NCBI GenBank assembly: GCA_017620205.1
Contig: JAFZQX010000038.1
Location: 1 to 55,132, forward strand
Direction: 5' to 3'
From: Clostridia bacterium
GTDB taxonomy: Bacteria > Bacillota > Clostridia > UMGS1883 > UMGS1540
Length of the DNA stretch: 55,132 bases
The first letter of the stretch is position 1. Every line of letters begins with the position of its first letter. The notes beneath the pieces were generated by a model that was given only the letters and a program-made list of their open reading frames with translations, ran no database searches and was not told where the DNA came from. Made by a program: the position numbers and the translations under genes. Shown one piece after another: positions 573 to 54,992 of the stretch.

Positions 573-1013
573 TTGGATAAGGAATACGAGCTTTTATTGC
601 TTAAAAATCAGGTCTGCTTTCCGACTTATGCCGTTGCGAATAAAATACTCAGACGATATCAACCGCTTTTGAAAGAGATAAACCTTACCTACACGCAGTA
701 TGTAACTATGATGGTCATGTGGGAAAAGGAGGTCGTCAATGAAAAAGACCTGGTAAAAGCGTTGTATCTGAAGGCAAACACGCTGACGGACCTGCTTCGG
801 AAATTAGAGAAAAAAGGTTATGTTCAAATAAGCAGAGATGAAAAAGACAAAAGAAATATAGTTATACGTCTTACCGATGAGGGGCGTAAACTTAAAGATG
901 CCGCCGTTGACGTTCCGAAAACGCTTATCGACGAGCATTGGCTGACCGATGAAGAAGTAAAAATTTATAAAGAACTACTATACAAATTATTGAAGGGAGA
1001 TTGGGAAAAATGA
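573..1013 (+). CDS. MarR-family winged-helix transcriptional regulator
   Basis: This 146-residue protein, near the usual MarR length, starts with TTG at 573, six bases after GAGGTG. Longer in-frame starts are rejected because they overlap the consensus promoter. A dimerisation helix region comes first, then the winged helix: [19 protein letters not shown] (recognition helix) and [18 protein letters not shown] (the wing, with the family's D-x-R/K signature). MarR repressors usually control adjacent genes in response to oxidants or phenolic ligands. Its stop overlaps the start of the next gene (ATGA), so it is cotranscribed with the metallo-beta-lactamase-rubredoxin, ferritin-like and small helix-turn-helix genes. 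It probably represses the operon in the absence of oxidative stress, which is inferred from the neighbours. I see no conserved cysteine pair that would identify a thiol sensor. Confidence 0.9.
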
Positions 1014-37008: not shown

Positions 37009-38157
37009 TTAGTCTATTACGACTTTTTCTCCCGTCTCGCATGATTTTTTAGCCATTAGACAGAGAAGCGCGCTCTGTATACCTTCGTCGAGATAAGATT
37101 TATCCGTCTCACCTCTGAGCATTTCGAGGAACATCGTTGCAAGTTTGTTATCTCCGCCGAAGTGTGCAGCGCCGGCTTTTGTGTACTTATAGTTATCAAC
37201 TCTCGGACTGTCATGACGGTATACGTTTATTTCATTATCATACCAATCAAATTCAAGTGTGCCCTTGTAGCCGTAGAATCTTGCGCCGCGGCGGCGTGCT
37301 TTATGTCTTGCGAAGAAGTTCTGGCTATAGTTTGCAACTACGCCGTTTTTATATGTAACAACAGCGTTGCCGCAATCCTGGTTGCCCGTATCTTCTGCGA
37401 AGCAGCACCAATCGCCGATTATATCGTCATGGTATACATTTTTGATAACATAAGGACTTTCGGGACAAGTTTTGTTCTCGGGACAGTCTTTACATTTAAG
37501 TCCCGCGGGCTTGTCGCCTTTGAAGATTTTTTTGATTTCTGTAGCGTATACTTCTTTTGCGGTATCGCCCAGAATATAGTTGATATAGTCAAAGTCGTGC
37601 GTTGCCTTCTGGAGCCACAGACCGCCTGTTATGCCGTCGTCTCTGTACCAGTCATGGAAATAAACTCTGCCGTAAGGCACATCGTTATGCGCTTCAACCT
37701 GGATAACTTCGCCTATTTCGCCTTTATCGATAAGGTCTTTTACCTTAACTGCTATTTCGGAGAAACGAAGCGGGAAGGAAACAACAACTTTATGATTATA
37801 CTTGCGTGAAGCTTCTCTGAGTTTTTCAATTTCTTCGATTGATGTTGAAACGGGCTTTTCAAGATAAAGAGTTAAGCCTTTATCCAAAACCTTTATAGCA
37901 AGGTCGGTATGCGTATTGCAGCGCGTGCCGATAACAACGCCGTCAAGCTCTTCTTTTTCGAGCATTTCGTCTGCGTCTGTATAAACCTTTATATCCTTTG
38001 TAAAATACTCGGGTTTTTCCTCTATTTTCTTTTTAATTCCTTCAACATCAATATCGGTAACCGCCGATATGATTATCTCATCTGATACTGCAAAAAATGA
38101 CGGAACAACCATGTTATATATTCTTGTTCCGAGACCTATAACACCAATCTTAAACAT
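37009..38157 (-). CDS. Gfo/Idh/MocA-family NAD(P)-dependent oxidoreductase
   Basis: 382 residues, starting at ATG 38157 behind AAAAGGGAGA. The N-terminal Rossmann fold has GVIGLGTR at 5-12, the family EKP motif is at 100-102 (LYLEKPVS), and the catalytic His/Asp region is KATHDFDYI (184-192). A cysteine group CKDCPENKTC (222-231) plus CC near 251 may be structural or bind a metal; it is unusual for the superfamily and found in a subgroup. Members oxidise or reduce sugars, inositols or glycosides at a secondary hydroxyl using a nucleotide. It is the last gene of the operon, 26 bases after the GH109-like gene, and the tandem repeat begins immediately after its stop. The substrate cannot be read from sequence. 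Confidence 0.85.
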   Translation of the reverse strand: MFKIGVIGLGTRIYNMVVPSFFAVSDEIIISAVTDIDVEGIKKKIEEKPEYFTKDIKVYTDADEMLEKEELDGVVIGTRCNTHTDLAIKVLDKGLTLYLEKPVSTSIEEIEKLREASRKYNHKVVVSFPLRFSEIAVKVKDLIDKGEIGEVIQVEAHNDVPYGRVYFHDWYRDDGITGGLWLQKATHDFDYINYILGDTAKEVYATEIKKIFKGDKPAGLKCKDCPENKTCPESPYVIKNVYHDDIIGDWCCFAEDTGNQDCGNAVVTYKNGVVANYSQNFFARHKARRRGARFYGYKGTLEFDWYDNEINVYRHDSPRVDNYKYTKAGAAHFGGDNKLATMFLEMLRGETDKSYLDEGIQSALLCLMAKKSCETGEKVVID

Positions 38158-38183
38158 TTTAAATTCTCCCTTTTAAATATTTA

Positions 38184-39440
38184 TTAGTAAATTTTAACAC
38201 TCGTGTCTACACACACCTTGTCGAGACAGTATTTACATTCAACAATGGGCTCACGGTTTGTCCATTTACCCTTTGTAAAGTCAGGAACGGGAACAGGAGC
38301 ACCGCCCATTGCAATGGATGCTTCGGTAAGAGGTCCTATTGACAGCCAAAGAGCCGTATCATAAACGTCAATAGGTGTGTTTGTGCCGTTTTTAACAGCT
38401 TCAACAAACGCTCTTGCAACGAGCCAGTCTATACCCTCGTGACCTTCTTTTTCACCCAATTTGCGGTATTCCGTGTGAAGCGGATGGTCAAATCTTTCCA
38501 TAAATTTATCCATGTTGCCCTTAACTTTATCTTCCTGATCCATGCCGGGGAAATTCATGAAGTTTGCATCTTCAAACATATTGCCCCTTGTTCCGCGAAC
38601 GTTGAAGTTACGCGAATAGAAGCCTCTCGGAAGTGTTGTGTCGAGACAAAGATGAATTGTTTCGCCGCCGGCGCACTTGATATTTGTGCTTACCATGTCG
38701 CTCTGGTAATAGTGCGTCTGAGCATAGGGGCTGTCCGCGCCCAAATTATCAACGATATACTGCTTGATGCCGCGGCCCTTTGAGCCCATGGAACTTAAAG
38801 TGAGCATCTTGTTGCCTCTGTTGAGCTTCAAAACCTTTGAAATGGGACCGAGTTCATGTGTTGCATACTGGTCGCAGTTACGGAGGGCATATTCATGCAG
38901 TCTGTAGTGACGGCCAACTTCCTTATCTCTGAAAAGCTCACCGTTTAAGAGATAGTGACCGTAAGCGCCTTCACAGTGAACAATCTCACCGAAAAGACCC
39001 TGCTCGGACATGTTATATGCCATCATTTCACGTCTGCCGTAGCAGCAGTTTTCAAGCATCATGCAGGGTATGCCGGTTTCCTCATATGCTCTGACAAGGT
39101 CATGGCACTCCTGGATATCATAAGCGCTGCCAACTTCAATACCAACGTATTTGCCTGCGCGCATTGCGCGGATAGCTTTCTCAACTCTGTCAAGCCAGGG
39201 CGTCATTATTATAATAGCATCTATCTCGGGATCGTCAAGCAAATCCTGATACTCTGTCGTAAACTTGCAGTTTTTATGACCGATTTCATCGAGAAGCTCT
39301 TTTGCCTCTGCCAGGATGGGTTCGTAGTTATCGCAAAGCGCAACAATTTCTACGTCTTCCATATGGCCGTAGCCTTCTTCTATAGTATATCTGCCACGTC
39401 TGCCAAAACCAACCCAGCCAACTTTGATTTTATCTTTCAT
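38184..39440 (-). CDS. GH109-like NAD-dependent glycosidase of the Gfo/Idh/MocA fold
   Basis: 418 residues from ATG 39440. After the Rossmann fold (GWVGFGRRGR) it keeps the signatures of GH109 alpha-N-acetylgalactosaminidases: IEVGSA (near 101, replacing EKP), CMMLENCCYGR (126-136), YATHELGP (192-199, catalytic His region), LKLNRGNKML (204-213), then EGIDWLVARAFVEAV, VYDTALWLSIGPLTE and PVPDFTKGKW. GH109 enzymes cleave glycosides by a transient oxidation at C3 with tightly bound NAD. Known members are often exported; this one has no signal peptide, so it would act on imported sugars. Residues outside the motif differ from the characterised N-acetylgalactosaminidases, so another glycoside is possible. 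It sits between two oxidoreductases in the operon (42 and 26 bases). Confidence 0.75.
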   Translation of the reverse strand: MKDKIKVGWVGFGRRGRYTIEEGYGHMEDVEIVALCDNYEPILAEAKELLDEIGHKNCKFTTEYQDLLDDPEIDAIIIMTPWLDRVEKAIRAMRAGKYVGIEVGSAYDIQECHDLVRAYEETGIPCMMLENCCYGRREMMAYNMSEQGLFGEIVHCEGAYGHYLLNGELFRDKEVGRHYRLHEYALRNCDQYATHELGPISKVLKLNRGNKMLTLSSMGSKGRGIKQYIVDNLGADSPYAQTHYYQSDMVSTNIKCAGGETIHLCLDTTLPRGFYSRNFNVRGTRGNMFEDANFMNFPGMDQEDKVKGNMDKFMERFDHPLHTEYRKLGEKEGHEGIDWLVARAFVEAVKNGTNTPIDVYDTALWLSIGPLTEASIAMGGAPVPVPDFTKGKWTNREPIVECKYCLDKVCVDTSVKIY

Positions 39441-39482
39441 AATAGAGAATACCTTTCTTTTTTTATACTATCTCTCTAAGTC

Positions 39483-40472
39483 TTATTTGTTTGCTTTTTC
39501 TATCTGTTCGAGCGCAAGCTCAACGCTTCTTGCGCCTTCTTTAAGCGGAGCTATATTCTCGCCTGCAGGATTTTCAAGATATTCAAGGAAATATTTGAGC
39601 TCGTTATAGTAGCCGCCGAGGTCTGAAATATTGCCGCTGCCTGCTTTAAGTGTGCAGGCGCTCTCTATTACGGGGCTGAACGCTTCGCCGTCTGCGGGGA
39701 AAATTGTAACGGTGCCGCCTTCAAACAAAACGGTTGCTTTTTCAAACTGAACACGGAAGCCTGCCGTGAAGGGGAAGCATGCGGGGAAATCCCATGAAGC
39801 TTCTGCAGTTAAAATTGCATCGTCATATTTATATATTGTCATGATATATTCGTTAAGGCCGGGTTTTTCTTCAATACCAACGGCTTTAACCTCTTTGGGC
39901 TCACCCATGAGGTAACGCATATAATCTGTATCATGAATATGCAAATCAAGCGCCATACCGCCGCTCTTTTCGGGAGTGTGGAGCCAGTTGTCCCATGCCC
40001 AGTCGGGACGGGGTGAAAGACGTTTGAAGGAAGCGTTTAAAAGCTTGCCGTATTCGCCTTTTTCTTTAAAGTCTTTAAGCCAAACATACTGATCCCAGAA
40101 TCTTATAACCTGACCAACCTGAGCCTTTTTGCCTGTCTTTGCCTGAACCTCAAGAAGTTTTTCAGCCTCTTCTTTTGTTCTGCAGAGAGGTTTTTCAACA
40201 AAAACGTCAAAACCTTTTTCCATTGCATCAATTGCAAATTCTGCGTGAAGATATGTCGGGAGACATATATCAACAAAATCTACATCTGCTTTTGCAATTA
40301 AATCCTTGCCGTCTGCATATATATCTGAATTAAAGAGCGAAGCGAGCTCTTCTGCCTTTTCGCGTCTTACATCCGCAACCGCAACGATTTTTACTTTGTC
40401 TTCCAAAGCTTTGTAACAGTTAGCATGCATGGTTCCCATGAAACCGCAGCCGATTAAACCTACTTTTAACAT
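39483..40472 (-). CDS. Gfo/Idh/MocA-family oxidoreductase (inositol 2-dehydrogenase-like)
   Basis: 329 residues from ATG 40472, with a GGAGG site that overlaps the end of the upstream gene (spacing 2 bases). It has a Rossmann motif GLIGCGFMG (5-13), EKP at 93-95 and the catalytic region GGMALDLHIHD (171-181). It is the canonical size and order for myo-inositol/scyllo-inositol or sugar 3-dehydrogenases. Tight coupling with the TIM-barrel gene indicates consecutive steps: oxidation to a keto sugar followed by isomerisation or cleavage. No signal peptide, so cytoplasmic. The substrate is unknown. Confidence 0.85.
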   Translation of the reverse strand: MLKVGLIGCGFMGTMHANCYKALEDKVKIVAVADVRREKAEELASLFNSDIYADGKDLIAKADVDFVDICLPTYLHAEFAIDAMEKGFDVFVEKPLCRTKEEAEKLLEVQAKTGKKAQVGQVIRFWDQYVWLKDFKEKGEYGKLLNASFKRLSPRPDWAWDNWLHTPEKSGGMALDLHIHDTDYMRYLMGEPKEVKAVGIEEKPGLNEYIMTIYKYDDAILTAEASWDFPACFPFTAGFRVQFEKATVLFEGGTVTIFPADGEAFSPVIESACTLKAGSGNISDLGGYYNELKYFLEYLENPAGENIAPLKEGARSVELALEQIEKANK

Positions 40473-40474
40473 TG

Positions 40475-41314
40475 TTATTTCCTCCCTAAAATCTTGTCCA
40501 TAGCTAAAGACGTATTATAAATAATTGTTTCCGGATAGAGCGTATACGCAGGTATCATTTCACCTGTTACCCAGCCGTCATAACCGATTTCATCAAACGC
40601 TTTTTTAACAGCGATATAGTCAACGTCGCCTGCGAGCAAATCAACAAAGCCGTCAAGCGTTCCGACATTCTTTCTGAAATCCTTGAAGTGAACCTTTTTA
40701 ATTCTCTTATTGAGAATTTTGATCCACTGTTCCGGATAACCGGAGTATAAAACGTTGCCAACGTCAAAATACGAGCAAACATAGGGCGAGCCTACTTTAT
40801 CTATAAGGTCGCGCATCTCAAGCGGAGATAAAAGGAACTTGTTCCAAACGTTTTCTATGCAAAGCTCAACGCCGAATTTTTCCGCTACGGGTTTGAGCTC
40901 CGTTAATGCTGCGAGACATCTGTCATACGCAACATCGTAATCAACAACTCCAAGGTTTGGCATAAAATCAACGCCTACAGAGCCCGGAACTACAAGAATG
41001 CTCTGACAGCCGAGCCATGAAGCAACCTCAAGCTGTTTCTTTGTGATTTCAATTGCGTTTCTTCTTGTCTGTTCGCTGTCAGCTGTATAGTTTTCATCCC
41101 AATACTTACCGCTGGCAAGACTGTAAAGCTCGATACCGCATTTATCGGCAAGCGCTTTTATTCTGTCCGCGTCTTCCTTTGTTGTGTCCATGTTTACAAA
41201 GCCGCCGTCGTCAAGAGCGAGTTCAACGCCGTCAAACCCTGCGTCTTTTGCGATTTTGAAAACCTTTTCGAGATCTGTTTCGGTGAAAGACCAAATACTG
41301 ATACCCTTTTTCAT
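40475..41314 (-). CDS. Sugar isomerase/epimerase-like TIM-barrel protein (AP endonuclease 2 superfamily)
   Basis: 279 residues from ATG 41314, with AGGAGG eight bases upstream. The metal-binding quartet of xylose-isomerase-like epimerases is visible: Glu154 (CIENVWN), Asp184 (YFDVGN), His209 (KKVHFKD) and Glu252 (VTGEMIP). Known relatives interconvert keto-sugars (tagatose/psicose 3-epimerase, hydroxypyruvate isomerase, inosose isomerase) or cleave 3-keto-glycosides. It is the first gene of the operon, followed by three oxidoreductase-fold genes, and lies next to the AraC regulator. Assignment to this superfamily is firm; the substrate is not. Confidence 0.85.
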   Translation of the reverse strand: MKKGISIWSFTETDLEKVFKIAKDAGFDGVELALDDGGFVNMDTTKEDADRIKALADKCGIELYSLASGKYWDENYTADSEQTRRNAIEITKKQLEVASWLGCQSILVVPGSVGVDFMPNLGVVDYDVAYDRCLAALTELKPVAEKFGVELCIENVWNKFLLSPLEMRDLIDKVGSPYVCSYFDVGNVLYSGYPEQWIKILNKRIKKVHFKDFRKNVGTLDGFVDLLAGDVDYIAVKKAFDEIGYDGWVTGEMIPAYTLYPETIIYNTSLAMDKILGRK

Positions 41315-41346
41315 ATAAAAACCTCCTAAAGTAATCTTACAAGGTC

Positions 41347-41375
41347 ATTATACGACACAAAAACGTATAAGTAAA
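41347..41375 (-). promoter_or_regulatory. Promoter of the sugar operon with a weak -35 box
   Basis: On the minus strand, TTTACT (41370-41375), 17 bases, TATAAT (41347-41352), 33 bases before the start codon. A perfect -10 with a poor -35 fits activation by the adjacent AraC protein. Confidence 0.6.
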
Positions 41376-41403
41376 TGTAAAAAACTGTTCTAAATATGTA
41401 AAA
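41375..41403. promoter_or_regulatory. Direct repeat, candidate AraC-type binding site
   Basis: ATGTAAAA occurs at 41375-41382 and again at 41396-41403, 21 bases apart, the two-helical-turn spacing typical for AraC half-sites. It lies just upstream of the -35 box and inside the araC terminator. Confidence 0.35.
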
Positions 41404-41425
41404 TTGTATACTTAGAACAGTTTTT
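41380..41425 (-). terminator. Terminator of the araC gene
   Basis: AAAAACTGTTCTAA (41380-41393) pairs perfectly with TTAGAACAGTTTTT (41412-41425); 18-base loop, T-run on both strands. It lies directly after the AraC stop. Confidence 0.75.
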
Positions 41426-41432
41426 CTTAAAA

Positions 41433-42314
41433 TTAATTGATTTTTACCGATTTTTTATACTCGCTCGGGCTCATTCCCGTAACTCTCCTGAACACCTTTG
41501 AGAAATAAAGGGGATCTCTGAAACAGAGCTTTTCCGCTATCTGAGCGAAGTTGTGCTGTCTTTCGCGGATAAGTTTTTTTGCCTCGTTTATTTTTACCTT
41601 ATTTATATATTCGTTTATCGTATAGCCGAAATTTTTCAGGAATATTTTTGAAAGATACGCTTTTGAATACTTCATTTCCTTACAAAAATCGTTTACTTTA
41701 ATATCGCTGTATGCCGTTTCATCAAGCTTTTGCTTCATTCTGTTTGCAATATCTTCTATCATAAGATCCTGCGTTACAAAGACATTGCTTTCGCCGGCGG
41801 AGGTTTCGTATCTCAAAAGCAAAATTAGAAGCTGCTCCAGATACGTTCTTACCATCTGCTGACCGCCCGTGATACTGTTTTTGCGCAGGTTAAGCTTTCT
41901 GAGATCGGGGTTGTTAAACGGCAGATCAAATGTTTTTTGTCCTTCATCTATTATATTTGATATGATCGGTCTCAGTTTAAGAGGAATACGGATTTGTTTG
42001 TTTCTGAAAAATCTCATGGCGTCCGAGTTGCATACAAAGCTTATGACAAAAATATTTGGAGCCGTGACACCGTCAGCTTTGTGACAATGAAACTCATTGG
42101 GCTTGTGAAAACAGCACTCGCCCTGAGAAAGCGTAAATTCTTTTTTGTTTGCCGTAACACGTATAAATCCCTTATCAACATATATTATTTCCCAAAAATC
42201 ATGACTTTCGCCTTCGAAAGCATAGTTTTTGTCAAACTCAAAATAATGAATAGTGACAATTTTGGGAATATTAATTGTATTTTCGATTTTATGTTTGATA
42301 TAGTTGTTTTTCAT
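41433..42314 (-). CDS. AraC-family transcriptional regulator
   Basis: 293 residues from ATG 42314, with CGGAGG six bases upstream. The N-terminal part, to about 120, is a cupin-like ligand-binding domain (ESHDFWEIIYVDKG, TLSQGECCFHKPNEFH). The C-terminal part, about 195-290, carries the two helix-turn-helix motifs: VNDFCKEMKYSKAYLSKIF and AEKLCFRDPLYFSKVFRR, ending in the family signature VTGMSPSEYK. Such regulators bind sugars and usually activate adjacent catabolic operons. The gene is 17 bases after the C39-like peptidase gene and therefore probably cotranscribed with it; a terminator separates it from the sugar operon, which it likely controls. Confidence 0.9.
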   Translation of the reverse strand: MKNNYIKHKIENTINIPKIVTIHYFEFDKNYAFEGESHDFWEIIYVDKGFIRVTANKKEFTLSQGECCFHKPNEFHCHKADGVTAPNIFVISFVCNSDAMRFFRNKQIRIPLKLRPIISNIIDEGQKTFDLPFNNPDLRKLNLRKNSITGGQQMVRTYLEQLLILLLRYETSAGESNVFVTQDLMIEDIANRMKQKLDETAYSDIKVNDFCKEMKYSKAYLSKIFLKNFGYTINEYINKVKINEAKKLIRERQHNFAQIAEKLCFRDPLYFSKVFRRVTGMSPSEYKKSVKIN

Positions 42315-43944: not shown

Positions 43945-46900
43945 TTAATATCCACCCTTTTCAATGCCTGCCACTTTCTGAATAGGTGCCATCTTATCGG
44001 CAAACCATGTGAATACTCTTATTTTGTCTGTGTTGTCTTTAAGCGTGTAGTTTATTACGTTTCCTTCTATTTCACCGCTGTTTTTGAATGTGATGTCTAT
44101 AAGGTTGCCGCACTCGTCGTATGCGCCTACAAAAATTCTGAAATCGGGTTCAATGTTTTCTTTTATACCGATTTTGATTGTTTCGCCCGCGAATACGGGT
44201 TCGGTGGGGCTGTCAAGCCTGTTTACAATTGTGCCGTCGGTTTTCTTAAACGAAACCTTGTTTACTGCAACATTATCATTTAAAGCATTGTCAATATATT
44301 TATCTTTTTCAAGATTATAGAGCTCTGTTACAGAATCTTTCGGGAACGCGCCCCGGTAAATCTTAAAGTCTGAGATGCTCATATCGTCGGGAACGTAGTT
44401 GCTGTTTTGGTCGCCGCCGATTCTGAAAGCAGGAGTGTACATTTCCATGTTTTCAAGATCTGTGGGAACAACCATTTCTGCTTCCTTCTTTAATGCGCCG
44501 TCTACGTATGTTTTAACAATCTTTTTGCCGTCTTCGTTAAATCTCGGAATTGACATTACAACATGATGCCATTCGTGAGAAGTAGCTATAGCGTATGTTC
44601 CGCTATTAGGTTCATATTTTTCGTTCCAGGTGGGAGCACCGTCTGCCTCATAATGCGTCTGGAACACGCGGGCTCTGAGGTATCCGGGTATACCGGTTTT
44701 GAACTCTTTTTCGCCTGTAGGCTTGTTGTCAGCGCCAAGAACATCTACTTCTCCATCGTAAGTATACTTAACTTCATACTGCACAGGCTGAACATACTGT
44801 GACTTTGCAGTCTGTCTTATACCTCTGTCAATGTTTACCCAGAACGAAACGGTTATGGAATCGTTTTCAAACGCTTCATCTGTTATTTTGAAGTGATGCT
44901 CCATACCGATGTTTTTGCCTGCCTCATCAAATTCACCTCTGTCATGCGTTAAGAGGATATAATCGCCAACCTTTTGGAGGTTCTTATCATAAAGCGTCTG
45001 TTTGTTTATAGAAATATTATAATTATCCGCTTCAACGCTGTGAATATCAAACTGGGCCGTCTCACTTGTACCTTCATTTGTAATGCCGGAGCCGCCTTCG
45101 AGTGAATAGCCGAAGTTATCGAGACCGAACCGGACGAGTATGGGGCTCTTTGTGGGGCCTGCGTCTTCGTCTGTTATAAAGCTTTCATCAACAGTATATT
45201 TGCTCTTTGTCGCTTCATAAACGGATTCAATCTCCGTGCCTGTCATTTCGCCTTCGTAAACCGTGATATCGCCGAGAGATATATCTGTAGGCCAGTTATA
45301 GCCCGCTCTCTTAGGTAAGTATTCACCGCCGAAGCAAAGTCTTACTTTCGAAAGGTTGCCTTCGGGTTTTTCTACCGTAGTTGAACCTAAGTATTTACCG
45401 TTTACGTATACCTTCATTGTTTTTGTGCCGTTTGTGTCATACTTCGGGTTTGTAACGGTATAAAGCGCCCATTTGTCTGCGGCGTCTTCCGTAACATCTC
45501 CGTAAATGGGACTCTGAGCATGACCGACAAGCTTTAAATTACCGGAAGTTGTCGGAGCCTGGTCAAGAGTAAAGAGATGCGATGAGGTTGATCCGTAAGT
45601 TACGTTGTAGTCAAGGATATTGTATTCCTGACCACCTTTGTTAACGGGAACATACTTAGCCCAGAAGGAAATTGTGTTTGCCGTCTCTTCAAGGCCGTTT
45701 TCAATAATAATACTATGGCTGTTTTTGTCATAGCAATTATCGGGAACAATAGTTCTGTGAATATACGCAGTATCGCTGCCGTTTACGCTGCGGAGAGTTT
45801 CTTTTTTCAAAGTAAGATATCTCCAGTTATTTGGGCTGCCATCAGTATTATCATTATTAGCCGACATTTTAACAACTGTTGTATCTTTAAGAGAGCCGGT
45901 ATTAACAATGCCGCCTATAGAAGTATTAACCGTATCGGGGTTTGACTCGGTATCTTCAACATATGTTGACATGTCGAGATTTATAAGCGCGTTGCCCGCG
46001 TAAGGATCTACAACGGGATCGTCACCGCCGGGGCCGGGCGTCGGGGGTGCTATAGGATCTGTATCTTCAACGGGAGCTATAGCCGTGTTTTCATTGTATG
46101 TATCTTTTTCTGCATTATAAAGATTTTCAATGTCTTCTGCAAACATTGCTTCATCATATACCTGGATTTCGCCGAAGTATATGTCCATCGGCCAGAATGT
46201 TTTTGCACCGCTTTCTTTGTCCGGATTTACCGAGCCGATGAAGTAATCGCCGCCGAAGCAAAGCTTAGCTTCTTTTACTTCACCTTCCGGCTGTTCAACC
46301 GTCTGATACGCAACTTCATTTCCGTTTACGTAAACTCTCATTTTCTTAGCGTAAGAGTCCGTTGTGGAATTGTATTCATATTCGGGGTTTGTAATAACAA
46401 ACTGTGCCCACTTGCCCGCAGCGTCGGCTGTGATGTCGGCGCGCATAGAGCTTACTTCGTCTTTTTTGCCGCAAATCTTGAAAGCTGCATTTTGCGCCGT
46501 ATCGCTTACGGAATTTGAATTGAGCTCCATGAGCGTCATGGGTGTCTCAGCTGTTCCGTCATCATATACCGCAAAGTACTGGAGTAAGCCGATTATATTC
46601 TGACCTAAGTACGGAGTATATTTAGCCCAGAATACGATTGTATTATTGCCTTCTTCAAGCGCGGACTCATCAATAACGCGGAATCTGTTTTTATCGTCGC
46701 AGGCTTTTTGATTCTGCGTCATGTGAAGGAAAGGTACGTTTCCGCCGTCCATGTTTGTAAACGTGCCTTTATTCAGCACCATGCTGTTCCAGCCGCCGCC
46801 ATAATACTGCGAAGACATGGTAACTTTTGTTGACTCATTAAGCGAGCCGTTGTTTGTAATACTGCCTATGCTTGTTGTAGCCGTATAGGGGTCTGTGGTT

Positions 46901-47049
46901 GTGTCCTTAACATATGTAGAATAGTCAAGGTCTACGAGTTTTTCAGGATCTGCGTATGCCACAAGGCTTGCGGGTATAACCGTCGCAAGCATAAGTATGG
47001 CAACAAACAGAGCCAGAAACATTCTGCACTGTTTTCTCATCTTTTTCAT
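43945..47049 (-). CDS. Secreted protein with three LamG-like jelly-roll domains
   Basis: 1,034 residues from ATG 47049 (AAGGAG very close upstream; a second ATG four codons in is also possible). A signal peptide (about 1-33, hydrophobic LALFVAILMLATVIPASLV) precedes three concanavalin/LamG-type domains: about 37-318, 355-650 and 665-945. Each repeats the order I/VDLD.S.Y..., EE..NTI.FWAKY, KWA.F.ITNP.Y, K.YVNG and I.FG.I.VY. A proline/glycine linker (IAPPTPGPGG) joins the first two. The last 85 residues form a C-terminal beta domain (GETIKIGIKEN, VFTWFADKMAP) shared with the next gene and the giant protein. LamG folds bind glycans or proteins; no catalytic domain is seen. It is probably a glycan-binding partner of the esterase next door, though it has its own promoter. 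Confidence 0.8.
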   Translation of the reverse strand: MKKMRKQCRMFLALFVAILMLATVIPASLVAYADPEKLVDLDYSTYVKDTTTDPYTATTSIGSITNNGSLNESTKVTMSSQYYGGGWNSMVLNKGTFTNMDGGNVPFLHMTQNQKACDDKNRFRVIDESALEEGNNTIVFWAKYTPYLGQNIIGLLQYFAVYDDGTAETPMTLMELNSNSVSDTAQNAAFKICGKKDEVSSMRADITADAAGKWAQFVITNPEYEYNSTTDSYAKKMRVYVNGNEVAYQTVEQPEGEVKEAKLCFGGDYFIGSVNPDKESGAKTFWPMDIYFGEIQVYDEAMFAEDIENLYNAEKDTYNENTAIAPVEDTDPIAPPTPGPGGDDPVVDPYAGNALINLDMSTYVEDTESNPDTVNTSIGGIVNTGSLKDTTVVKMSANNDNTDGSPNNWRYLTLKKETLRSVNGSDTAYIHRTIVPDNCYDKNSHSIIIENGLEETANTISFWAKYVPVNKGGQEYNILDYNVTYGSTSSHLFTLDQAPTTSGNLKLVGHAQSPIYGDVTEDAADKWALYTVTNPKYDTNGTKTMKVYVNGKYLGSTTVEKPEGNLSKVRLCFGGEYLPKRAGYNWPTDISLGDITVYEGEMTGTEIESVYEATKSKYTVDESFITDEDAGPTKSPILVRFGLDNFGYSLEGGSGITNEGTSETAQFDIHSVEADNYNISINKQTLYDKNLQKVGDYILLTHDRGEFDEAGKNIGMEHHFKITDEAFENDSITVSFWVNIDRGIRQTAKSQYVQPVQYEVKYTYDGEVDVLGADNKPTGEKEFKTGIPGYLRARVFQTHYEADGAPTWNEKYEPNSGTYAIATSHEWHHVVMSIPRFNEDGKKIVKTYVDGALKKEAEMVVPTDLENMEMYTPAFRIGGDQNSNYVPDDMSISDFKIYRGAFPKDSVTELYNLEKDKYIDNALNDNVAVNKVSFKKTDGTIVNRLDSPTEPVFAGETIKIGIKENIEPDFRIFVGAYDECGNLIDITFKNSGEIEGNVINYTLKDNTDKIRVFTWFADKMAPIQKVAGIEKGGY

Positions 47050-47188
47050 ACTCTCCTTATGTTTTTTTCCGGTTTTTGCGAAAAGCCGTAAAACTTTGTA
47101 TTGTTAGATAGGTGCAGGCACCAAGACGCATATCCCTAAAGCGACCCGATGCTTTAAATACTGTTCGTAAAAACAAACAATAAACACT
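47050..47188 (-). promoter_or_regulatory. Long leader of the triple-LamG gene
   Basis: About 140 bases lie between the -10 box and the start codon. The leader can fold: AAAGC/GCTTT around eight bases (about 47140-47157) and GGTGC/GCACC (about 47112-47123). I could not match it to a known riboswitch class. Other genes here have leaders of 20-60 bases, so the length is unusual. Confidence 0.4.
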
Positions 47189-47195
47189 TATAGTT

Positions 47196-47224
47196 AATAT
47201 ATCACTTTTTTACATGTTTGTCAA
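47196..47224 (-). promoter_or_regulatory. Promoter of the triple-LamG gene
   Basis: On the minus strand, TTGACA (47219-47224), 17 bases, TATATT (47196-47201). The remaining 47225-47331 shows nothing else I can support. Confidence 0.7.
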
Positions 47225-47331
47225 TGGATTTGCAACCGGCGCAATACCGCAAAACCGCCAATTTACCGATAAACAAAGGGATTTTTCACCATGTAGAAAA
47301 TCAGCCCCGTAATTTGGTTATTTTCCACAAA

Positions 47332-47362
47332 AAAAAGCAGCGGCAATTTGCCGCTGCTTTTT
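47332..47362 (-). terminator. Terminator of the esterase-LamG gene
   Basis: AAAAAGCAGCGGCAA (47332-47346) pairs with TTGCCGCTGCTTTTT (47348-47362); at least 13 pairs once a minimal loop is allowed. Confidence 0.9.
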
Positions 47363-47372
47363 GATGCAATGT

Positions 47373-50300
47373 TTATTTTATAAGCGTTTTAGCTTTCTGA
47401 ACCGACTGTCCGAGGCCCTTCCATGTGTAAACAATAAGTTTTCCGGCGCCTGCGGGCACAGATATATTAAAGCTGCCTTCGCCGTTTGCAAAAGCGGCGC
47501 CCGTTTCTAAAAGCTTGCCGTTTGCGTCATATACCGCCGCAAATACGGTTACGCCCGTTTCGGTATTTTCGTCAAAATCTATTGTAACGGTATCGCCGGC
47601 GTTTACATTTTCAATGCTGTTTATTACATTTCCCGCGGCGTTTTTAACAGTAATTCCGTTATAAACCGCGTTATCGTAAACGCTTCTTTCTCTCTCGTAT
47701 ATGGATGTAACGCCTGCAGATGAGAGAGCGCCCGAATAAACCTTAACGTCCGCAAAGCTTATGTCGCCAGCTATATACTGACCTACTTCTGTGCAGCCGA
47801 GACCTATCCACGCCTCAGAAATCGTGTGACCGCCGAGGCTTAAATCTTCGGTTGCCTTCAGCCCGCCGTCAACATAAACGAGAGCCGTTGTCACGCCGCC
47901 CGTAAACTTCGGAATTGTCATAACAACATGGTGCCACTGTCTTGAATTATCTATTTCAAAAGTATTTACAACCCAGTTGTCGCTCCATATATATCCTTCT
48001 TCGTCAGTTTCAAGCGACGCCTGCCATACTCTGGCTCTTGAGTTTGTGCCGTCCGCCTGGTTTCTATATGTTCCGTCGTCGCGCTTTACGTTAAACTGCG
48101 CTATCGGGCAGTAAGCTCTTTCGGGAGGCTGTTTTGATATGGGGTCTACGTTTGTCCAGAACGAAAGCGATATATCCTGCGACTTAAACGCGTCAGCCGT
48201 AATGGTTATGTTTTTAGTGTTTGTTACGGCTTCGGGATTTGGGTTGCTGTGGCTTATTCTCATAACCTTCTTTGAAGGCGACAAATCGTTTTTGTCATAG
48301 AGATAGTCCGTTGTAAGCGCAACGGTGTCTGTAGAATGCGCGTTTATCGCGGCGCTTTTAAGCGTGCCTGCGTTAACTATTCCCGACGCGCCCGTTTTGC
48401 TGCCGGGTGCAAAGTCCGAAAGGTCTAAATCAATAAGCACTTCACCTTCGTCAACCGGAGCCGTCAAAACAACGAGCGTTGCAGTGAGTTCGAGCTCTTT
48501 ATATCCGTCTTTTGTAAGCGTTGCGGTTATGGGATATACCCCGCATTCCGTTGCTCCAGTAAAAGGAGCGCCGCCGCATTTATAAGTGATATTTACGTCT
48601 TCAGTTGCATTTTCGCCGGCAGTAACTTCTATGTTATGGCTTTCGCCGTCAAAAAATACGTTTTTGCTCTCAAACGAATAACCCTTTATTGTCTGAAGCT
48701 GTACGCCGCTGCCGTTAAATCTGTAAAACCGGTCATTGTAAAGGTCTGAAACTTCATCTGCCGTGAGCGCGCCCGCCGTGACTTTAATGTCACCCAGGGA
48801 CACGTCCTTCGGATAATATATAGTATGTTTCCCGTCGCCGTCGCCCGCGAAAAAGAGCTGCGCGTTTACAAGCGTACCTTCAGGTCTTTCTATTGTCTTT
48901 GAAATTATCTCTTCGCCGTTTACATAGACCTTAAGCGTTTTTGAGCCGTCCTCGTACATGGGGTTTACTATTGTATAAAACGCCCATTCGCCGTCCGCAT
49001 CGCTGAGGTCCGCGCCGTTTGTGCTCCAATCGTCATAAATCTTGAAAGTCGAAGAATTGTCCGTTGTCAGTTTTAAAAGCTTATAGTCGTCCGCGTTATA
49101 TGTAACTCTGTAATGCAAAAGGCTTCTTCTCTCTTTTGGGGAAGGTCCTGTTTTCATCCAGAACGAAATTGTGTTTGACTGCGTTTCAAGAACCTGATCT
49201 TCTATAAAACGCCTGTTGTTATCCGCCTGCTCAAGCTCATCGTTTTGAGAATAATGCAGATAATATGTTGTGCCGCCCGCCCCGTTTGTAAGTGACTCTT
49301 TCACTAGGCTCTGATTTGTATATGTGCTTGTACGGTCGCTCATAACAACTCTTGTTTTGTCGCCGCGCGCGCCGACGTTTATTACGTTTCCTATTGAGTT
49401 TGTTGAATCGTTTGCGTTTGTCGTTTTATCACTCTGATAGCCGGACATATCAAGGTCGATCAAAGTAGTGCCGTCATCGTAAAGCGGCACTTCCGGCTCG
49501 GGGAATTCACTTGAAGGATCGTCTTCTACGGAGCCTTCGTATTTTGGTTTTTCACCCATGTAAACCTTATATACCTGCGAGGGGTTAAGTTCACCGTTAT
49601 ATACTTCTACATCGTTAAACGAAATATAGTCGGGATAGTAAATCGCATGGTTTCCTTCGCCTTCGCCCGCAAAGTAAAGCTTCGCCGTTTGAAGCGTGCC
49701 CGTTGCCTTCTTTATCTTTCTGCTGAAGCGCACCGTTCCGTTTACATATACTTTAACGAGCTTTGAGCCGTCTGCGTATGCGGCGCTTGTAATTGCGTAA
49801 TGCGCCCACTGTCTGTTTGCCTCGGCGTTTATGTCCTCATTGGCGTCCTTGTCCCAGCCGTTGCAAACAGAGAGCGACTTTGTTGAAGATTCCGTACAAA
49901 GTCTTACTATATCTGTTTTGTTGCCGCTTGTGTCATACGCGGCAAGGTTTACTATAGACCTTCTCTCATTCTGCGGTTTAACCTTTGCCCAGAACGAGAT
50001 TGTATTTGCCTGTGAGTCAAGTATTTTGTCTTCTATATATCTTTCTCCGTTATTATCCTGAACCATGTCGGAGTTTTTGGAGAAATTCAGATATGAAACC
50101 GTTTCGTTCTCCGCTGTCGTAAACGTCTTCTTGTCAAGACTTTGGTTATGAGCCGTTGTATATGACGAGAAAACCGTCTTTGTACTGTTGCCGCGCGAGC
50201 CGTTATTTTGTACGCCGCCTATATTGCCTGACGAAGCGGGGTTTGTTGTTGTATCCTTTTCATAGCCTTCAAAGTCAAGGTCAATAAGCTTTGAAGGGAT

Positions 50301-51257
50301 TGAAACTTTATCCCAGTCGACCTCCTCCGCTCCGAGTGGACGCGTCTCGGGATCGTATACGGGACAGTTTGCTTCCATCTGCTCAAACGTTGGAATATCT
50401 CCCGTGTTCAGCTTATACAAATATGCGAAAATTTCTTTTTGGAAAAGCGGCCACCAATGTATGCCCCAACTTTTGGGACACTCAATTGTTGTTATAAGAC
50501 CTTCCTTGTTGTTGCCCGTGCTTTCAATCGCTTCTTTGGCGCGCAGGGCGTTTGTTTTATAGTTTGTCTCATTAGGGTCATTGCCTATTTCGCCGAGACC
50601 CCATGTCATAAGAACGAAAGCGTCCTCATCCTTAGAGAGATAGATGTCACTTGCGTGATTATAAAGTCCCCAGTTGCCTTCGCCGAGATAATAGCTGGCG
50701 GAAGGACTTAAGCAGCCAATGTATTTAAGCTGCTCGCTGTACATTGTGCCTGCATAAAGCGCCGTCATACCGCCCATTGAGTAACCCGCCATGGCAATTT
50801 CTTTTGACGTATCAATTTTCGGTGAAAATGTGCCGTTTTGGATTTTTGTAAGCAATGTCGGCAGCTGCTGGCGCACATAGTTTTCAAAATCAATAGCGTC
50901 CGGCAGTTCTGTTTTGCCCATGTTTTCCCTTTCAATATCGGGGAAGATTACCACCATAGGCTCAAATGTGCCCGCCTTAACCCAGTTGCTTATAAACTCG
51001 GGCGCGTGCTGTCTCATGGAGTTTACGTTTCCTCTGCCGTGAACAAGGATAAAAGCGCGGTATTTGCCTTCTGCTTTCGGGACCATATAGTACCCCTTGT
51101 TTCTCGGCCCGAAGTTATACGGTGTTACGTAGTAGTCATACGGGTCTTCATCCGCGGCCGCCGTCAAAAAAGACGCGGGCAAAAGCGTTACAAGCATTAC
51201 AAACGCCGCCAAAACCGCGATTAAAGACAAAAGTTTTCTGTTTTTTTTGAGTTTCAT
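47373..51257 (-). CDS. Secreted esterase (alpha/beta hydrolase) with three LamG-like domains
   Basis: 1,294 residues. ATG 51257 is preferred because GGGAGAG is seven bases upstream, but only one base from the in-frame ATG 51263. Signal peptide about 1-34. The esterase D/feruloyl-esterase-like domain (about 40-290) has the nucleophile elbow GYSMGG (Ser160) and His267 (SWGIHWW), with FILVHGRG near 69-76 as oxyanion-loop region. Three LamG-like domains follow (about 322-575, 595-845, 930-1190), with an Ig/MBG-like module before the last (KGYSFESKNVFFDGESHNI), and a C-terminal beta domain ending VYTWKGLGQSVQ. Relatives remove acyl or feruloyl groups from plant polysaccharides; the acid residue of the triad is not clear to me. 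The LamG parts probably bind the substrate. Confidence 0.85.
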   Translation of the reverse strand: MKLKKNRKLLSLIAVLAAFVMLVTLLPASFLTAAADEDPYDYYVTPYNFGPRNKGYYMVPKAEGKYRAFILVHGRGNVNSMRQHAPEFISNWVKAGTFEPMVVIFPDIERENMGKTELPDAIDFENYVRQQLPTLLTKIQNGTFSPKIDTSKEIAMAGYSMGGMTALYAGTMYSEQLKYIGCLSPSASYYLGEGNWGLYNHASDIYLSKDEDAFVLMTWGLGEIGNDPNETNYKTNALRAKEAIESTGNNKEGLITTIECPKSWGIHWWPLFQKEIFAYLYKLNTGDIPTFEQMEANCPVYDPETRPLGAEEVDWDKVSIPSKLIDLDFEGYEKDTTTNPASSGNIGGVQNNGSRGNSTKTVFSSYTTAHNQSLDKKTFTTAENETVSYLNFSKNSDMVQDNNGERYIEDKILDSQANTISFWAKVKPQNERRSIVNLAAYDTSGNKTDIVRLCTESSTKSLSVCNGWDKDANEDINAEANRQWAHYAITSAAYADGSKLVKVYVNGTVRFSRKIKKATGTLQTAKLYFAGEGEGNHAIYYPDYISFNDVEVYNGELNPSQVYKVYMGEKPKYEGSVEDDPSSEFPEPEVPLYDDGTTLIDLDMSGYQSDKTTNANDSTNSIGNVINVGARGDKTRVVMSDRTSTYTNQSLVKESLTNGAGGTTYYLHYSQNDELEQADNNRRFIEDQVLETQSNTISFWMKTGPSPKERRSLLHYRVTYNADDYKLLKLTTDNSSTFKIYDDWSTNGADLSDADGEWAFYTIVNPMYEDGSKTLKVYVNGEEIISKTIERPEGTLVNAQLFFAGDGDGKHTIYYPKDVSLGDIKVTAGALTADEVSDLYNDRFYRFNGSGVQLQTIKGYSFESKNVFFDGESHNIEVTAGENATEDVNITYKCGGAPFTGATECGVYPITATLTKDGYKELELTATLVVLTAPVDEGEVLIDLDLSDFAPGSKTGASGIVNAGTLKSAAINAHSTDTVALTTDYLYDKNDLSPSKKVMRISHSNPNPEAVTNTKNITITADAFKSQDISLSFWTNVDPISKQPPERAYCPIAQFNVKRDDGTYRNQADGTNSRARVWQASLETDEEGYIWSDNWVVNTFEIDNSRQWHHVVMTIPKFTGGVTTALVYVDGGLKATEDLSLGGHTISEAWIGLGCTEVGQYIAGDISFADVKVYSGALSSAGVTSIYERERSVYDNAVYNGITVKNAAGNVINSIENVNAGDTVTIDFDENTETGVTVFAAVYDANGKLLETGAAFANGEGSFNISVPAGAGKLIVYTWKGLGQSVQKAKTLIK

Positions 51258-51294
51258 ATTCATACTCTCCCTTCATATTTTTCCCTATAAATTT

Positions 51295-51324: not shown

Positions 51325-51328
51325 CACA

Positions 51329-51360
51329 AAAAAGCCGCGGCAAAATTGCCGCGGCTTTTT
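51329..51360 (-). terminator. Terminator of the SLH-EF-Tu gene pair
   Basis: AAAAAGCCGCGGCAA (51329-51343) pairs perfectly with 51346-51360. It ends transcription of the two genes upstream and is four bases from the next gene's -35 box. Confidence 0.9.
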
Positions 51361-51369: not shown

Positions 51370-53124
51370 TTATTCTTCTTCGCCAAACCAATCAGCGGGA
51401 ACTACCTGTGTTATTTCAAACGTTGCAATAGTTCTGCCGCCTTCGCGCAAAGCGCCTTCCTGGCCGAGATACATGAAACGGAATACATCGTCAAATGCCA
51501 TCTCTATCCATACGTCTTCGTATGTTTCGCCGGGCACGAGATCCTCGCTTTCCCAACAGTCCTCTTCTTCGTTATACACGTCATTATATACTACACATGT
51601 ACTGTCCGTGGAGCCTATATAGCACTGCGGCTTGTATGAGCCGTCGCCCGCCATTTTATTCGTTCTGCCGCCTTCTTCTTTTGTAAGTACTTTTACTTTT
51701 GCATAGAAAGCATTTGCCGACGTAAGGTCTACATTGTCGCTGATAAGAGCTTCGCCGCGATTTATATTTGCTCTTGCCGCTTCACTTGTTTCGCCGAGAC
51801 CGGAAAGCAGTATACCTACGTTATCGCCTTTCTCCGCTTCGTCCATCATTTTCCTAAACATTTCAATGCCTTCAACGTCAACATCTACATAGCTGCCGTC
51901 AAGTTTTGCGAGTCTTATGGTATCTCCGACAGTCACTTTGCCGTTTTCAACACGTCCCGTTGCAATAAGACCGCGGCCCTCAATCCAGAAAATGTCTTCA
52001 ACGTACATAAGGAAATCGTCACTTGAAAGGTCGTTTACTGCGCCGGAGCCTACATATGTAAGCCTGAATTCCGCCGTTGCCTGATTACCGTCCGCGTCTG
52101 TTACGATGCAGTAAATTACCGGGAACGCCGCTATGGCTTTGTTGCCGTCCGCATAAAACGTCATAGCTCCCGCCTCGTTATCGTAATCTACAACATTAAA
52201 GCCAGCATCTATTGCTGCCTGGTCGTCTATCTCAGCGTACCATGTTGATTTATGAACATTGATTCTTCTGCCTTTCCATTCGTATGTATAAGGCGCCTTT
52301 CCGCCTTCAACTACTGCCTGAAGCGTATAATCGATACCGGGCTCAACTTCTACCGTTTCGGGGTCAGCCGTAACTACAAGTTCTTCCTCTTCGTCATCGC
52401 CTTTTTCGGGGTCTTTTTCGGGATCTTTATCTTTGTCAGTATCTTTATCCTTGTCGTTATCTTTATCGGAATCCTTGCCTGCATTTTCGGGGTCGCCCAT
52501 TGTAAACTCTTTGCGCGCGTCATCGTTCATCATACGCGTAAGTATTGCCGCAACCTCACTGCGCTTAATATTTGCGGCGGGATTGCAGTTATGGTCTTTA
52601 TCAACACCCGTTAAGATACCTGCGCGGTAGAGCTTATAAACGGCGTCATAGTATTCCGCGCTTGATTTAACGTCCGGAATAGAGCCGTCTTCTATGTAGT
52701 TTATCGGTTTTAATGCTTCTTCGGGAAGGCTGTTTGCGAAAATTTCCATGTAGCCCGCGCGTGTTGCGAGTTTATCCCAGCTGTAACCCTTTTTGATAAT
52801 ACCGTTGTCGTTACAGTATTCAACGTAAGAATCATACCAGGGGTCGCCCGAAACTTTAAGCGTAACTTTGCCTTCTACGTAGTACTGGTTCATGCATGCC
52901 GCAAGCTTTACGGCTTCCGCATAAGTCATGTTGTCATCGGGCATAAACATATCTTCCGTTTTGCCGTTTATAAGGCCCATCATCCATGCGCTGTCAACGT
53001 CATCGTAAAACCAGTCCGTTTTTTTAACGTCCTTAAACGGAAGATCTGCCCTCGCCATAACCGGCATCACCATAACGCTTGCCAAAAGGCACACTGCAAG
53101 CACTAATCCTAATAGTTTTTTCAT
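51370..53124 (-). CDS. SLH surface protein carrying EF-Tu domains 2 and 3 (copy B)
   Basis: 584 residues from ATG 53124, with AAGGAGGA upstream. Order: signal peptide 1-26; three SLH repeats about 28-205 (YKLYRAGILTGVDKDH, IKRSEVAAILTRMM); a charged linker of Lys/Asp/Glu repeats 213-248; an Ig/PKD-like domain 249-360 (YTYEWKG); EF-Tu domain 2 at 370-462 (FLMYVEDIFWIEGRG, IATGRVENGKVTVGD, IEMFRKMMDEA, GDNVGILLSGL); and EF-Tu domain 3 at 472-575 (KEEGGR, YKPQCYIGSTD, LREGGRTIATFEI). The GTPase domain (GHVDHGKT, NKxD) is absent, so it is not a translation factor. SLH repeats would hold it on the cell wall. It lies 44 bases after copy A, and I see no good promoter in between, so they are probably cotranscribed. 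Function is unknown. Confidence 0.9.
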   Translation of the reverse strand: MKKLLGLVLAVCLLASVMVMPVMARADLPFKDVKKTDWFYDDVDSAWMMGLINGKTEDMFMPDDNMTYAEAVKLAACMNQYYVEGKVTLKVSGDPWYDSYVEYCNDNGIIKKGYSWDKLATRAGYMEIFANSLPEEALKPINYIEDGSIPDVKSSAEYYDAVYKLYRAGILTGVDKDHNCNPAANIKRSEVAAILTRMMNDDARKEFTMGDPENAGKDSDKDNDKDKDTDKDKDPEKDPEKGDDEEEELVVTADPETVEVEPGIDYTLQAVVEGGKAPYTYEWKGRRINVHKSTWYAEIDDQAAIDAGFNVVDYDNEAGAMTFYADGNKAIAAFPVIYCIVTDADGNQATAEFRLTYVGSGAVNDLSSDDFLMYVEDIFWIEGRGLIATGRVENGKVTVGDTIRLAKLDGSYVDVDVEGIEMFRKMMDEAEKGDNVGILLSGLGETSEAARANINRGEALISDNVDLTSANAFYAKVKVLTKEEGGRTNKMAGDGSYKPQCYIGSTDSTCVVYNDVYNEEEDCWESEDLVPGETYEDVWIEMAFDDVFRFMYLGQEGALREGGRTIATFEITQVVPADWFGEEE

Positions 53125-53168
53125 AAAAAATATCCTCCTTCTCGCGGCTTTGCCGCATTATATTATAA

Positions 53169-54896
53169 TCATCCAACTCCGGCGAAAACTTCAATTATTT
53201 CAAATTCTGCAATCGTTCTGCCGCCTTCGCGGAGATAGCCTATTTTGCCGGGATACGCGAACACGGAATCGTTTGTAAGAGTAAGCCAAACGCTTTCGTA
53301 TGTCTCGCTGGGCTGAAGCTCTGTTTCTATCCACGCATCGCCCTCTTCGTCATACTCTTCGTATTCAACCGACGCGGTGTAATCGCACGTGCCTATATAA
53401 AGCTGCGGCATATATGTGCCGTCGCCGGAAAATCCCGTGCTTCTGCCGCCTTCTTCTTTTGAATATACTCTGAGATTTACAACCATACTCTGTACGCCCG
53501 TAAGACCCGCGTTATCGCTAACCAGCGCGTTGCCGCGCTCTATATTTGCTTTTGCCTCTTCGTTTGTATCTCCGAGGCCCGATATAAGCAAGCCTACGTT
53601 ATCGCCAACGTCTGCTTCGTCCATCATTTTCTTAAACATTTCAATGCCTTCGACCGTTACTTTCTTTTCGCTGCCGTCGGCTCTTAATAGTTTTATTTTG
53701 TCGCCCTTATAAACCTTTCCGTTTTCAACTCTGCCCGTTGCAACAAGGCCGCGGTCTTCTATCCAGAAAATGTCTTCAACATACATGAGAAAATCATTTT
53801 TTGCAAGGTCGTTTAAAGAGCCTCCTCCCATGTACTCAAGCTCAAAGGTAACCAAAACTTCAGCGCCTTCATCGTCGGTGACTCTGCAGCAGATTTCGGG
53901 ATATGCTTTTACGGCATTGCCGCCGTCAACATTGAAGGTAAAGCTGCCGTCATCGCCGTAATCCACGGAATGGAAACCGACATCAACCGCTTCCTGAGTT
54001 TCAAAGTCCAGGGTCTCTGTGCTCTTGCCGGCTTTGCGGCACGCATACCATTCATATGTATAAGGCTCTTTGCCGCCGGAAGCCTTAACTTTTATTGTAA
54101 CTTCCTCGTTACCCGGAGGCACCTGTACTGTGTTGCTAAAAGCGGTAGTTACCGTAAGAGGTTTTTCGCTTTGAGTATAACTTACCGTTGTGTTGTTGTC
54201 AGCGTCGTCATGGTCGCCTTTTTCTTCGTATTTGTCTTTTACTTTTTCTATATCTTTATACTCGCCCATTGTAAACTCCTGTCGGTAGCTTACATCCATC
54301 ATACGCGTAATAATAGCCGCAACCTCACAGCGCTTAATGTTAGCTTCGGGGCTGCAGTTATGCTCTTTATCTACGCCCGTTAAAATTCCCGCGCGGTAGA
54401 GCTTATAAACGGCGTCATAGTATTCCGCGCTTGATTTAACGTCCGGAACAGAGCCGTCTTCTATATAGTTTATCTCTTTAAAAGCTTCATCGGGCAGGCT
54501 GTTTGCGAAAATTTCAATATAGCCTGCTCTTGTTGCGTTTTTATCCCAACTGTAGCCTTTTTTGATTATACCGTTGTCGTTGCAGTATTCAACATAAGTA
54601 TCATACCAAGGGTCGCCTGAAGGCTTTAAAGTTACCTTGTCTTCGTTATACAGCTGGTTCATGCAAGCCGCAAGTTTAACGGCTTCCGCATATGTAAGAT
54701 AATCGTCCGGCATAAAAAGGCCGTCCGCTTTACCGTCTATAAGACCCATGCTGTGCGAATACTCAACTACCTCGTAAAACCATGTGTCATAGCCCGCGTC
54801 TGAAAAAGACGGCGTAGGTTTCATAGCCGAAACCTGCAGCGCAAAAACGCCGATTGCCATACAAAGCGCAAGCGATATACATAGTATTTTCTTCAT
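53169..54896 (-). CDS. SLH surface protein carrying EF-Tu domains 2 and 3 (copy A)
   Basis: 575 residues from ATG 54896, with AAGGAGG nine bases upstream. It has the same architecture as its neighbour: signal peptide 1-24; three SLH repeats about 29-205; short linker; Ig/PKD-like domain about 245-357 (YTYEWYACR); EF-Tu domain 2 at 367-460 (FLMYVEDIFWIEDRG, VATGRVENGKVYKGDK, IEMFKKMMDEADVGDNVG); and EF-Tu domain 3 at 469-571 (YSKEEGGRSTGF, YMPQLYIGTCDYT, LREGGRTIAEFEI). The SLH halves of the two proteins are very alike, also at DNA level, while the linker lacks the long Lys/Asp run of copy B. This is the first gene of the pair, under a strong promoter next to an IS end. EF-Tu itself is a known moonlighting adhesin; here a domain 2-3 module is exported by design. 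Confidence 0.9.
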   Translation of the reverse strand: MKKILCISLALCMAIGVFALQVSAMKPTPSFSDAGYDTWFYEVVEYSHSMGLIDGKADGLFMPDDYLTYAEAVKLAACMNQLYNEDKVTLKPSGDPWYDTYVEYCNDNGIIKKGYSWDKNATRAGYIEIFANSLPDEAFKEINYIEDGSVPDVKSSAEYYDAVYKLYRAGILTGVDKEHNCSPEANIKRCEVAAIITRMMDVSYRQEFTMGEYKDIEKVKDKYEEKGDHDDADNNTTVSYTQSEKPLTVTTAFSNTVQVPPGNEEVTIKVKASGGKEPYTYEWYACRKAGKSTETLDFETQEAVDVGFHSVDYGDDGSFTFNVDGGNAVKAYPEICCRVTDDEGAEVLVTFELEYMGGGSLNDLAKNDFLMYVEDIFWIEDRGLVATGRVENGKVYKGDKIKLLRADGSEKKVTVEGIEMFKKMMDEADVGDNVGLLISGLGDTNEEAKANIERGNALVSDNAGLTGVQSMVVNLRVYSKEEGGRSTGFSGDGTYMPQLYIGTCDYTASVEYEEYDEEGDAWIETELQPSETYESVWLTLTNDSVFAYPGKIGYLREGGRTIAEFEIIEVFAGVG

Positions 54897-54934: not shown

Positions 54935-54963
54935 ATTTTATCATTTTTTATGTTTTTTGTCAA
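54935..54963 (-). promoter_or_regulatory. Promoter of the SLH-EF-Tu gene pair
   Basis: On the minus strand, TTGACA (54958-54963), 17 bases, TAAAAT (54935-54940); the start codon follows about 40 bases later. It lies 29 bases inside the IS insertion point and is intact. Confidence 0.85.
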
Positions 54964-54974: not shown

Positions 54975-54992
54975 CGCGGCAAAATTGCCGCG
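54975..54992. terminator. Terminator hairpin truncated by an IS
   Basis: CGCGGCAA (54975-54982) pairs with TTGCCGCG (54985-54992). By comparison with the intact copy at 51329-51360, the right arm and T-run should continue, but at 54993 unrelated sequence begins. Confidence 0.7.

Follow-up and report, generated by a model that had tools for sequence, protein, structure and literature searches.

The analysed stretch of DNA, referred to below as the window, comprises 55,132 nucleotides and represents one entire contig (C41) of a 2.34 Mb Clostridia bacterium genome assembled in 46 contigs. Close to one end of the window, on the reverse strand, two open reading frames are arranged in the same direction: P2 (53169–54896, 575 residues), the first gene of the pair, and P1 (51370–53124, 584 residues), the second. 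Both frames are intact, they are separated by 44 bases, and an AGGAGG-type ribosome site is found at each. The encoded proteins start with a putative signal peptide followed by three SLH repeats and an Ig-like domain, and their C-terminal halves match domains 2 and 3 of elongation factor Tu (D2 and D3). In P1, the SLH repeats span residues 29–210, an acidic linker residues 211–248, the Ig-like domain residues 249–357, D2 residues 370–460 and D3 residues 466–577; in P2, D2 and D3 cover about residues 366–456 and 465–571, respectively. The D2 cores are encoded at 51787–52020 (P1) and 53565–53798 (P2), both on the reverse strand.

A near-consensus extended −10 promoter (TTGACA-17-TAAAAT with TG before the −10; 54935–54963, reverse strand), assigned by consensus match only, precedes AAGGAGG and the start codon (ATG) of P2. 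The gene upstream is set apart from P2 and P1 by its own terminator-like hairpin (54975–54992, reverse strand), and on this upstream side 236 bases lie between P2 and the contig end. Just 3′ of P1, a GC-rich terminator-like hairpin, AAAAAGCCGCGGCAATTTTGCCGCGGCTTTTTT (51325–51360, reverse strand), was read directly from the sequence and would close the operon. It is followed by the promoter of the next gene, which matches the consensus at 12 of 12 positions (51324–51295) and precedes an esterase-laminin G protein. Because of the promoter in front of P2, the flanking terminator-like hairpins and the separate promoter of the next gene, the P2-P1 pair looks like a self-contained two-gene operon.

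The neighbouring genes provide no functional link to this operon. Directly downstream, two large exported laminin-G proteins, one of them with an N-terminal esterase, are encoded at 43945–51263 (reverse strand). The window further contains a single unbroken frame of 9612 residues (3613–32451, reverse strand) with repeated CARDB, fn3, PKD, Big and carboxypeptidase-regulatory-like domains, corresponding to a giant surface protein, and a CotH kinase domain fused to SLH repeats (33296–35725, forward strand), the product being a CotH-like protein anchored at the surface. A cluster at 37009–42314 (reverse strand), possibly a glycan-use operon, encodes an AraC regulator, a xylose-isomerase-like TIM barrel and three GFO/IDH/MocA-type proteins, one of which has a GH109 C-terminal domain. 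At 1001–1951 (forward strand) a metallo-β-lactamase-fold domain carries a C-terminal rubredoxin, adjoined by a MarR-type regulator at 483–1013.

Three SLH repeats are recognized by Pfam in each protein (6e-17 and 1.9e-14), as is GTP_EFTU_D2, which exceeds the cut-off in both (7e-13 and 7.2e-14). GTP_EFTU_D3 lies above the cut-off in P1 (5.5e-9) and below it in P2 (3.3e-5; 24.6 bits versus a cut-off of 27). NCBIfam EF-Tu models align across the entire C-terminal half (1e-35 and 1e-32), and the best sequence matches in the PDB are EF-Tu (2e-28). No match to the GTPase domain was obtained in either protein with Pfam or NCBIfam, and both fall short of the NCBIfam cut-offs for full-protein EF-Tu by hundreds of bits. 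Since the GTPase domain is absent, P1 and P2 are not EF-Tu themselves; their domain matches identify them as SLH surface proteins that contain EF-Tu domains and whose architecture is new. This is the domain order given in a preliminary description of the locus, with which the Pfam, NCBIfam and PDB matches agree; the signal peptides of P1 and P2 were read by eye, and the Ig-like domain, which remains under the Pfam cut-offs, is based on a profile built from the family and a predicted β-sandwich. The EF-Tu motifs listed in the same description are present in both proteins apart from GRG, which is found only in P1 and reads DRG in P2.

Overall, P1 and P2 are 59% identical. Identity differs between the domains, with 77% in the SLH repeats, 74% in D2, 50% in D3 and 44% in the Ig-like domain, so that D2 is about as conserved as the SLH region and far above the Ig-like domain or D3. 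The ordinary tuf gene of the same genome is a separate frame of 404 residues on another contig (C13), about 42% identical to P1 and P2 over D2-D3. A chimera produced in assembly from an SLH gene and tuf, the artefact considered in the preliminary description, is ruled out: the two paralogues differ at 41% of positions, tuf is located elsewhere, and homologues occur in many assemblies and in the isolate Ructibacterium gallinarum. Together with the low dN/dS (see below), this makes it exceedingly improbable that P1 and P2 are either such a chimera or a decaying pseudogene fusion.

The N-termini of P1 and P2 display the n-, h- and c-regions typical of signal peptides. Besides the three SLH repeats per protein, the genome provides another feature of SLH-anchored proteins, the wall-polymer pyruvyl transferase CsaB (245 bits versus a cut-off of 213), and it encodes 110 SLH repeats in total. 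Owing to the putative signal peptide, the number of SLH repeats and CsaB, a surface location is likely, and we infer export, anchoring and an adhesive or ligand-binding function for both proteins.

An AlphaFold2 model of P1, built with an alignment of 25 family members, has a mean pLDDT of 82.6, with most of D2 and D3 at 85–95. All top matches of this model in Foldseek are EF-Tu, and superposition with EF-Tu using VIA-align (Z 22.5, 2.7 Å over 190 residues) places both predicted barrels in the EF-Tu arrangement. The tandem of domain 2 and domain 3 barrels found in EF-Tu is hence seen in the sequence matches of P1 and P2 as well as in the P1 model. Superposition on EF-Tu had been proposed as a check of the domain assignment, and it yielded the expected double β-barrel. 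In the predicted model of a relative with D2 only (L048), D2 likewise adopts the EF-Tu domain 2 barrel (Z 15.2, 1.8 Å over 88 residues), and the SLH part resembles the SLH trimer of Bacillus anthracis Sap (Z 17.6, 3.1 Å over 166 residues).

Relatives were sought in 84,980 named species and in a class sample comprising 391 genomes, and then by scans of individual families. In gut and rumen Clostridia, this revealed 52 distinct exported D2 domains, seven with D3 and 45 with D2 only. The D2-D3 set consists of P1, P2, a homologue in R. gallinarum DSM 107454, a near-identical copy in genome G053, one protein of RGIG1656 and two tandem genes of SIG622. In the commonest layout, SLH-Ig-D2, D2 is C-terminal; many other proteins carry additional Ig domains after D2. 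Relatives are often tandem paralogues, and an intact SLH-EF-Tu homologue is present in the cultured isolate R. gallinarum. Of six D2-only proteins compared with Pfam, four scored above the D2 cut-off and two slightly under it. The stated sources of the relatives are largely gut samples of ruminants and other herbivores. Distribution is patchy: in three families, 5 of 38, 2 of 16 and 2 of 4 genomes match at 1e-60, not every match holding D2. Among the matches listed for a phylum-wide genome sample searched with the exported-D2 profile, no exported D2 occurred outside the genome of the window, nearly all other frames being close to tuf in length, and the 20 matches listed from a plasmid collection were ordinary tuf only. 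Judged by the species, class-sample and family scans, the architecture of P1 and P2 is that of a family of gut Clostridia and not peculiar to one genome, recurring in about 50 distinct open reading frames. In the open literature (subscription journals lay outside the scope) no description of SLH repeats combined with EF-Tu domains was found, and a survey of translational GTPases (PMC4342817) makes no mention of S-layer, signal peptide or extracellular. The proposal that EF-Tu D2-D3 was captured, exported and anchored at the surface appears well supported by the domain matches, the P1 model and the recurrence in relatives.

Several relatives differ in divergence from domain to domain. The proteins L040 and L067 are 99% identical in D2 and 75% in the Ig domain, and synonymous divergence between L011 and L056 is far lower in D2 than in SLH. 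Among these proteins and L050, it looks as if D2 had been exchanged between paralogues, giving rise to domain mosaicism. D2-only relatives (L049, positions 4575–6410; A4 consensus) often contain an HEH...CxxC...H..C..C stretch ahead of the SLH repeats; although the protein is exported, this stretch resembles a metal-binding ribbon. The gene copies of G053 (L042) and R. gallinarum (L072), genomes with different family codes, are 97% identical and embedded in 11.6 kb of flank with 99.2% identity. At first sight this resembled transfer between families, but in view of the flank match, misassignment or contamination is just as possible.

In a maximum-likelihood tree of D2-D3, a branch with 100/98 support separates the seven exported sequences from 20 tuf sequences. 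A single clade of all 52 D2 domains has the higher likelihood and could not be rejected (p-AU 0.57), the 76 aligned columns resolving little. The simplest history suggested by these trees is a single capture of D2-D3 from tuf, after which most lines lost D3. The median dN/dS of D2 is 0.17 over 116 pairs, compared with 0.21 for the P1/P2 pair and 0.19 for SLH. Given this median, D2 is under purifying selection.

According to the preliminary description, residues lining the aminoacyl pocket of EF-Tu look retained. With the pocket contacts given in PMC4329189 and PMC4236685, expressed in E. coli numbering, this holds for P1 and P2, in which 85% of the pocket residues are kept versus 48% of the other tuf-conserved positions (permutation p=0.009), and for the four D2-D3 lineages (72% versus 52%, p=0.045), although a test with few lineages and without burial control is suggestive only. 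Another version of the contact list gave the same direction (83% versus 59%, p=0.059). Kept in both proteins are E215, D216, F218, I220, T228, G257, E259, N273, G275 and L277, and D3 of both retains the equivalents of R318, Q329, T338 and E378. In EF-Tu, residues of the aminoacyl pocket also face the GTPase domain (PMC4329189); because this domain is absent from P1 and P2, retention of the pocket would not be owed to that interface. Preferential retention suggests a more specific function than that of a passive spacer, at least in the P1/P2 subfamily. In the 45 D2-only sequences, however, the pocket is eroded and no preference is seen (29% versus 36%).

These data bear on the idea that D2-D3 binds aminoacyl-tRNA or nucleic acid outside the cell. 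The conserved pocket and the D3 residues named above would fit such a binder. However, the net charge of D2-D3 is −23 and −21 in the two proteins (pI about 4.2), whereas tuf has a median of −3 (range −6 to 0). Moreover, the acceptor-stem arginine (E. coli 283) is replaced by Glu or Asp in P1 and P2 and lost throughout the D2-D3 class, and the GTPase domain that would hold the 5′ end is missing. The acidic charge, the missing arginine and the decay of the pocket in the D2-only relatives render binding of tRNA or nucleic acid, as once proposed, very unlikely.

Thiopeptide antibiotics occupy the aminoacyl/A76 pocket in EF-Tu, and EF-Tu bound to GE2270A or thiomuracin is among the top structural matches of the predicted fold. 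The pocket might serve as an extracellular site for a small aminoacyl- or peptide-like ligand, such as aminoacyl esters of wall polymers or thiopeptide antibiotics. All ten listed D2 residues are kept in the absence of the GTPase partner, and the homologous barrel of IF2 alone holds all determinants for binding the fMet-CCA end (PMC4236685). Against this stand the small number of lineages, the uncontrolled burial and the erosion in D2-only relatives, and such a ligand site is a tentative possibility of rather low probability. Slightly less probable still is its fullest form, in which the aminoacyl-ester pocket of EF-Tu would have been moved outside the cell and kept under selection as an S-layer ligand site for wall-polymer aminoacyl esters, peptides or antibiotics directed at EF-Tu, with its coupling to GTP and tRNA lost.

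With reasonable probability, the exported EF-Tu double barrel is reused as an extracellular stalk or spacer, or as a ligand-binding module of the adhesin type, within S-layer proteins. P2 and P1 would be exported by the Sec pathway as S-layer-type proteins, their three SLH repeats docking on pyruvylated secondary cell-wall polymer. The acidic linker and the Ig-like domain would form a stalk, which presents a distal double β-barrel descended from EF-Tu domains 2 and 3. This half presumably stems from a single capture event in gut Clostridia, with a tuf gene as the source, and since the GTPase domain was left out, neither a nucleotide switch nor a role in translation would be expected. The barrel may then have been exapted as a stable extracellular module and shuffled among Ig repeats like other surface domains, most descendants dropping D3. 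On the cell surface, the module would most likely act as a spacer or in ligand binding of the adhesin type, and the former aminoacyl/A76 pocket of the D2-D3 class may continue to serve a small or peptide-like ligand other than tRNA.

An alternative, a host-matrix adhesin representing a hard-wired form of moonlighting EF-Tu that binds fibronectin, plasminogen or mucin, would be compatible with the fibronectin-binding regions of Mycoplasma pneumoniae EF-Tu, located at the D1/D2 junction and in most of D3 (PMC5593925), and with the animal gut as the main stated source of D2-positive relatives. However, D3 is the less conserved half and absent from most relatives, and the genome collection is itself biased to gut metagenomes, which leaves this role improbable. 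A role as decoy for EF-Tu-targeting toxins, phages or antibiotics is highly improbable: in the crystal structure with the CdiA toxin of E. coli NC101 (5i4q), EF-Tu is represented by domains 2 and 3 only, so that D2-D3 alone can bind such a ligand, but CdiA belongs to a system of Gram-negative bacteria, the surroundings of the operon showed no link to toxins or defence, and the D2-only relatives are far diverged from tuf.

Surface EF-Tu is commonly attributed to moonlighting or lysis. In the present family, a dedicated EF-Tu fragment, apparently exported and anchored, is under purifying selection and spread through gut Clostridia, which clearly exemplifies how a core module of translation has been redeployed as a component of surface proteins. 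Whether EF-Tu domains perform useful work outside the cell becomes a question directly testable in cultured R. gallinarum. Compared with tuf-encoded EF-Tu, P1 and P2 share homology over D2-D3 (1e-35), the order and packing of the barrels (Z 22.5) and most pocket residues, but they lack the GTPase domain, are fused to a putative signal peptide, SLH repeats and an Ig-like domain, and differ in the acidic module without the acceptor-stem arginine and in the loss of D3 from most relatives. With SLH S-layer and S-layer-associated proteins such as Sap of B. anthracis they have in common three SLH repeats, probably a signal peptide, the occurrence of CsaB in the genome and a modular Ig-type outer part, which in P1 and P2, however, holds a translation-factor barrel and not only adhesive, enzymatic or crystal-forming domains. 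Like the surface-moonlighting EF-Tu of Mycoplasma and Staphylococcus, they would present an EF-Tu structure outside the cell. However, in moonlighting it is the complete cytosolic EF-Tu, devoid of an export signal, that is involved (PMC5593925), whereas P1 and P2 are products of genes separate from tuf, with a putative signal peptide and an anchor of their own and with D2-D3 only.
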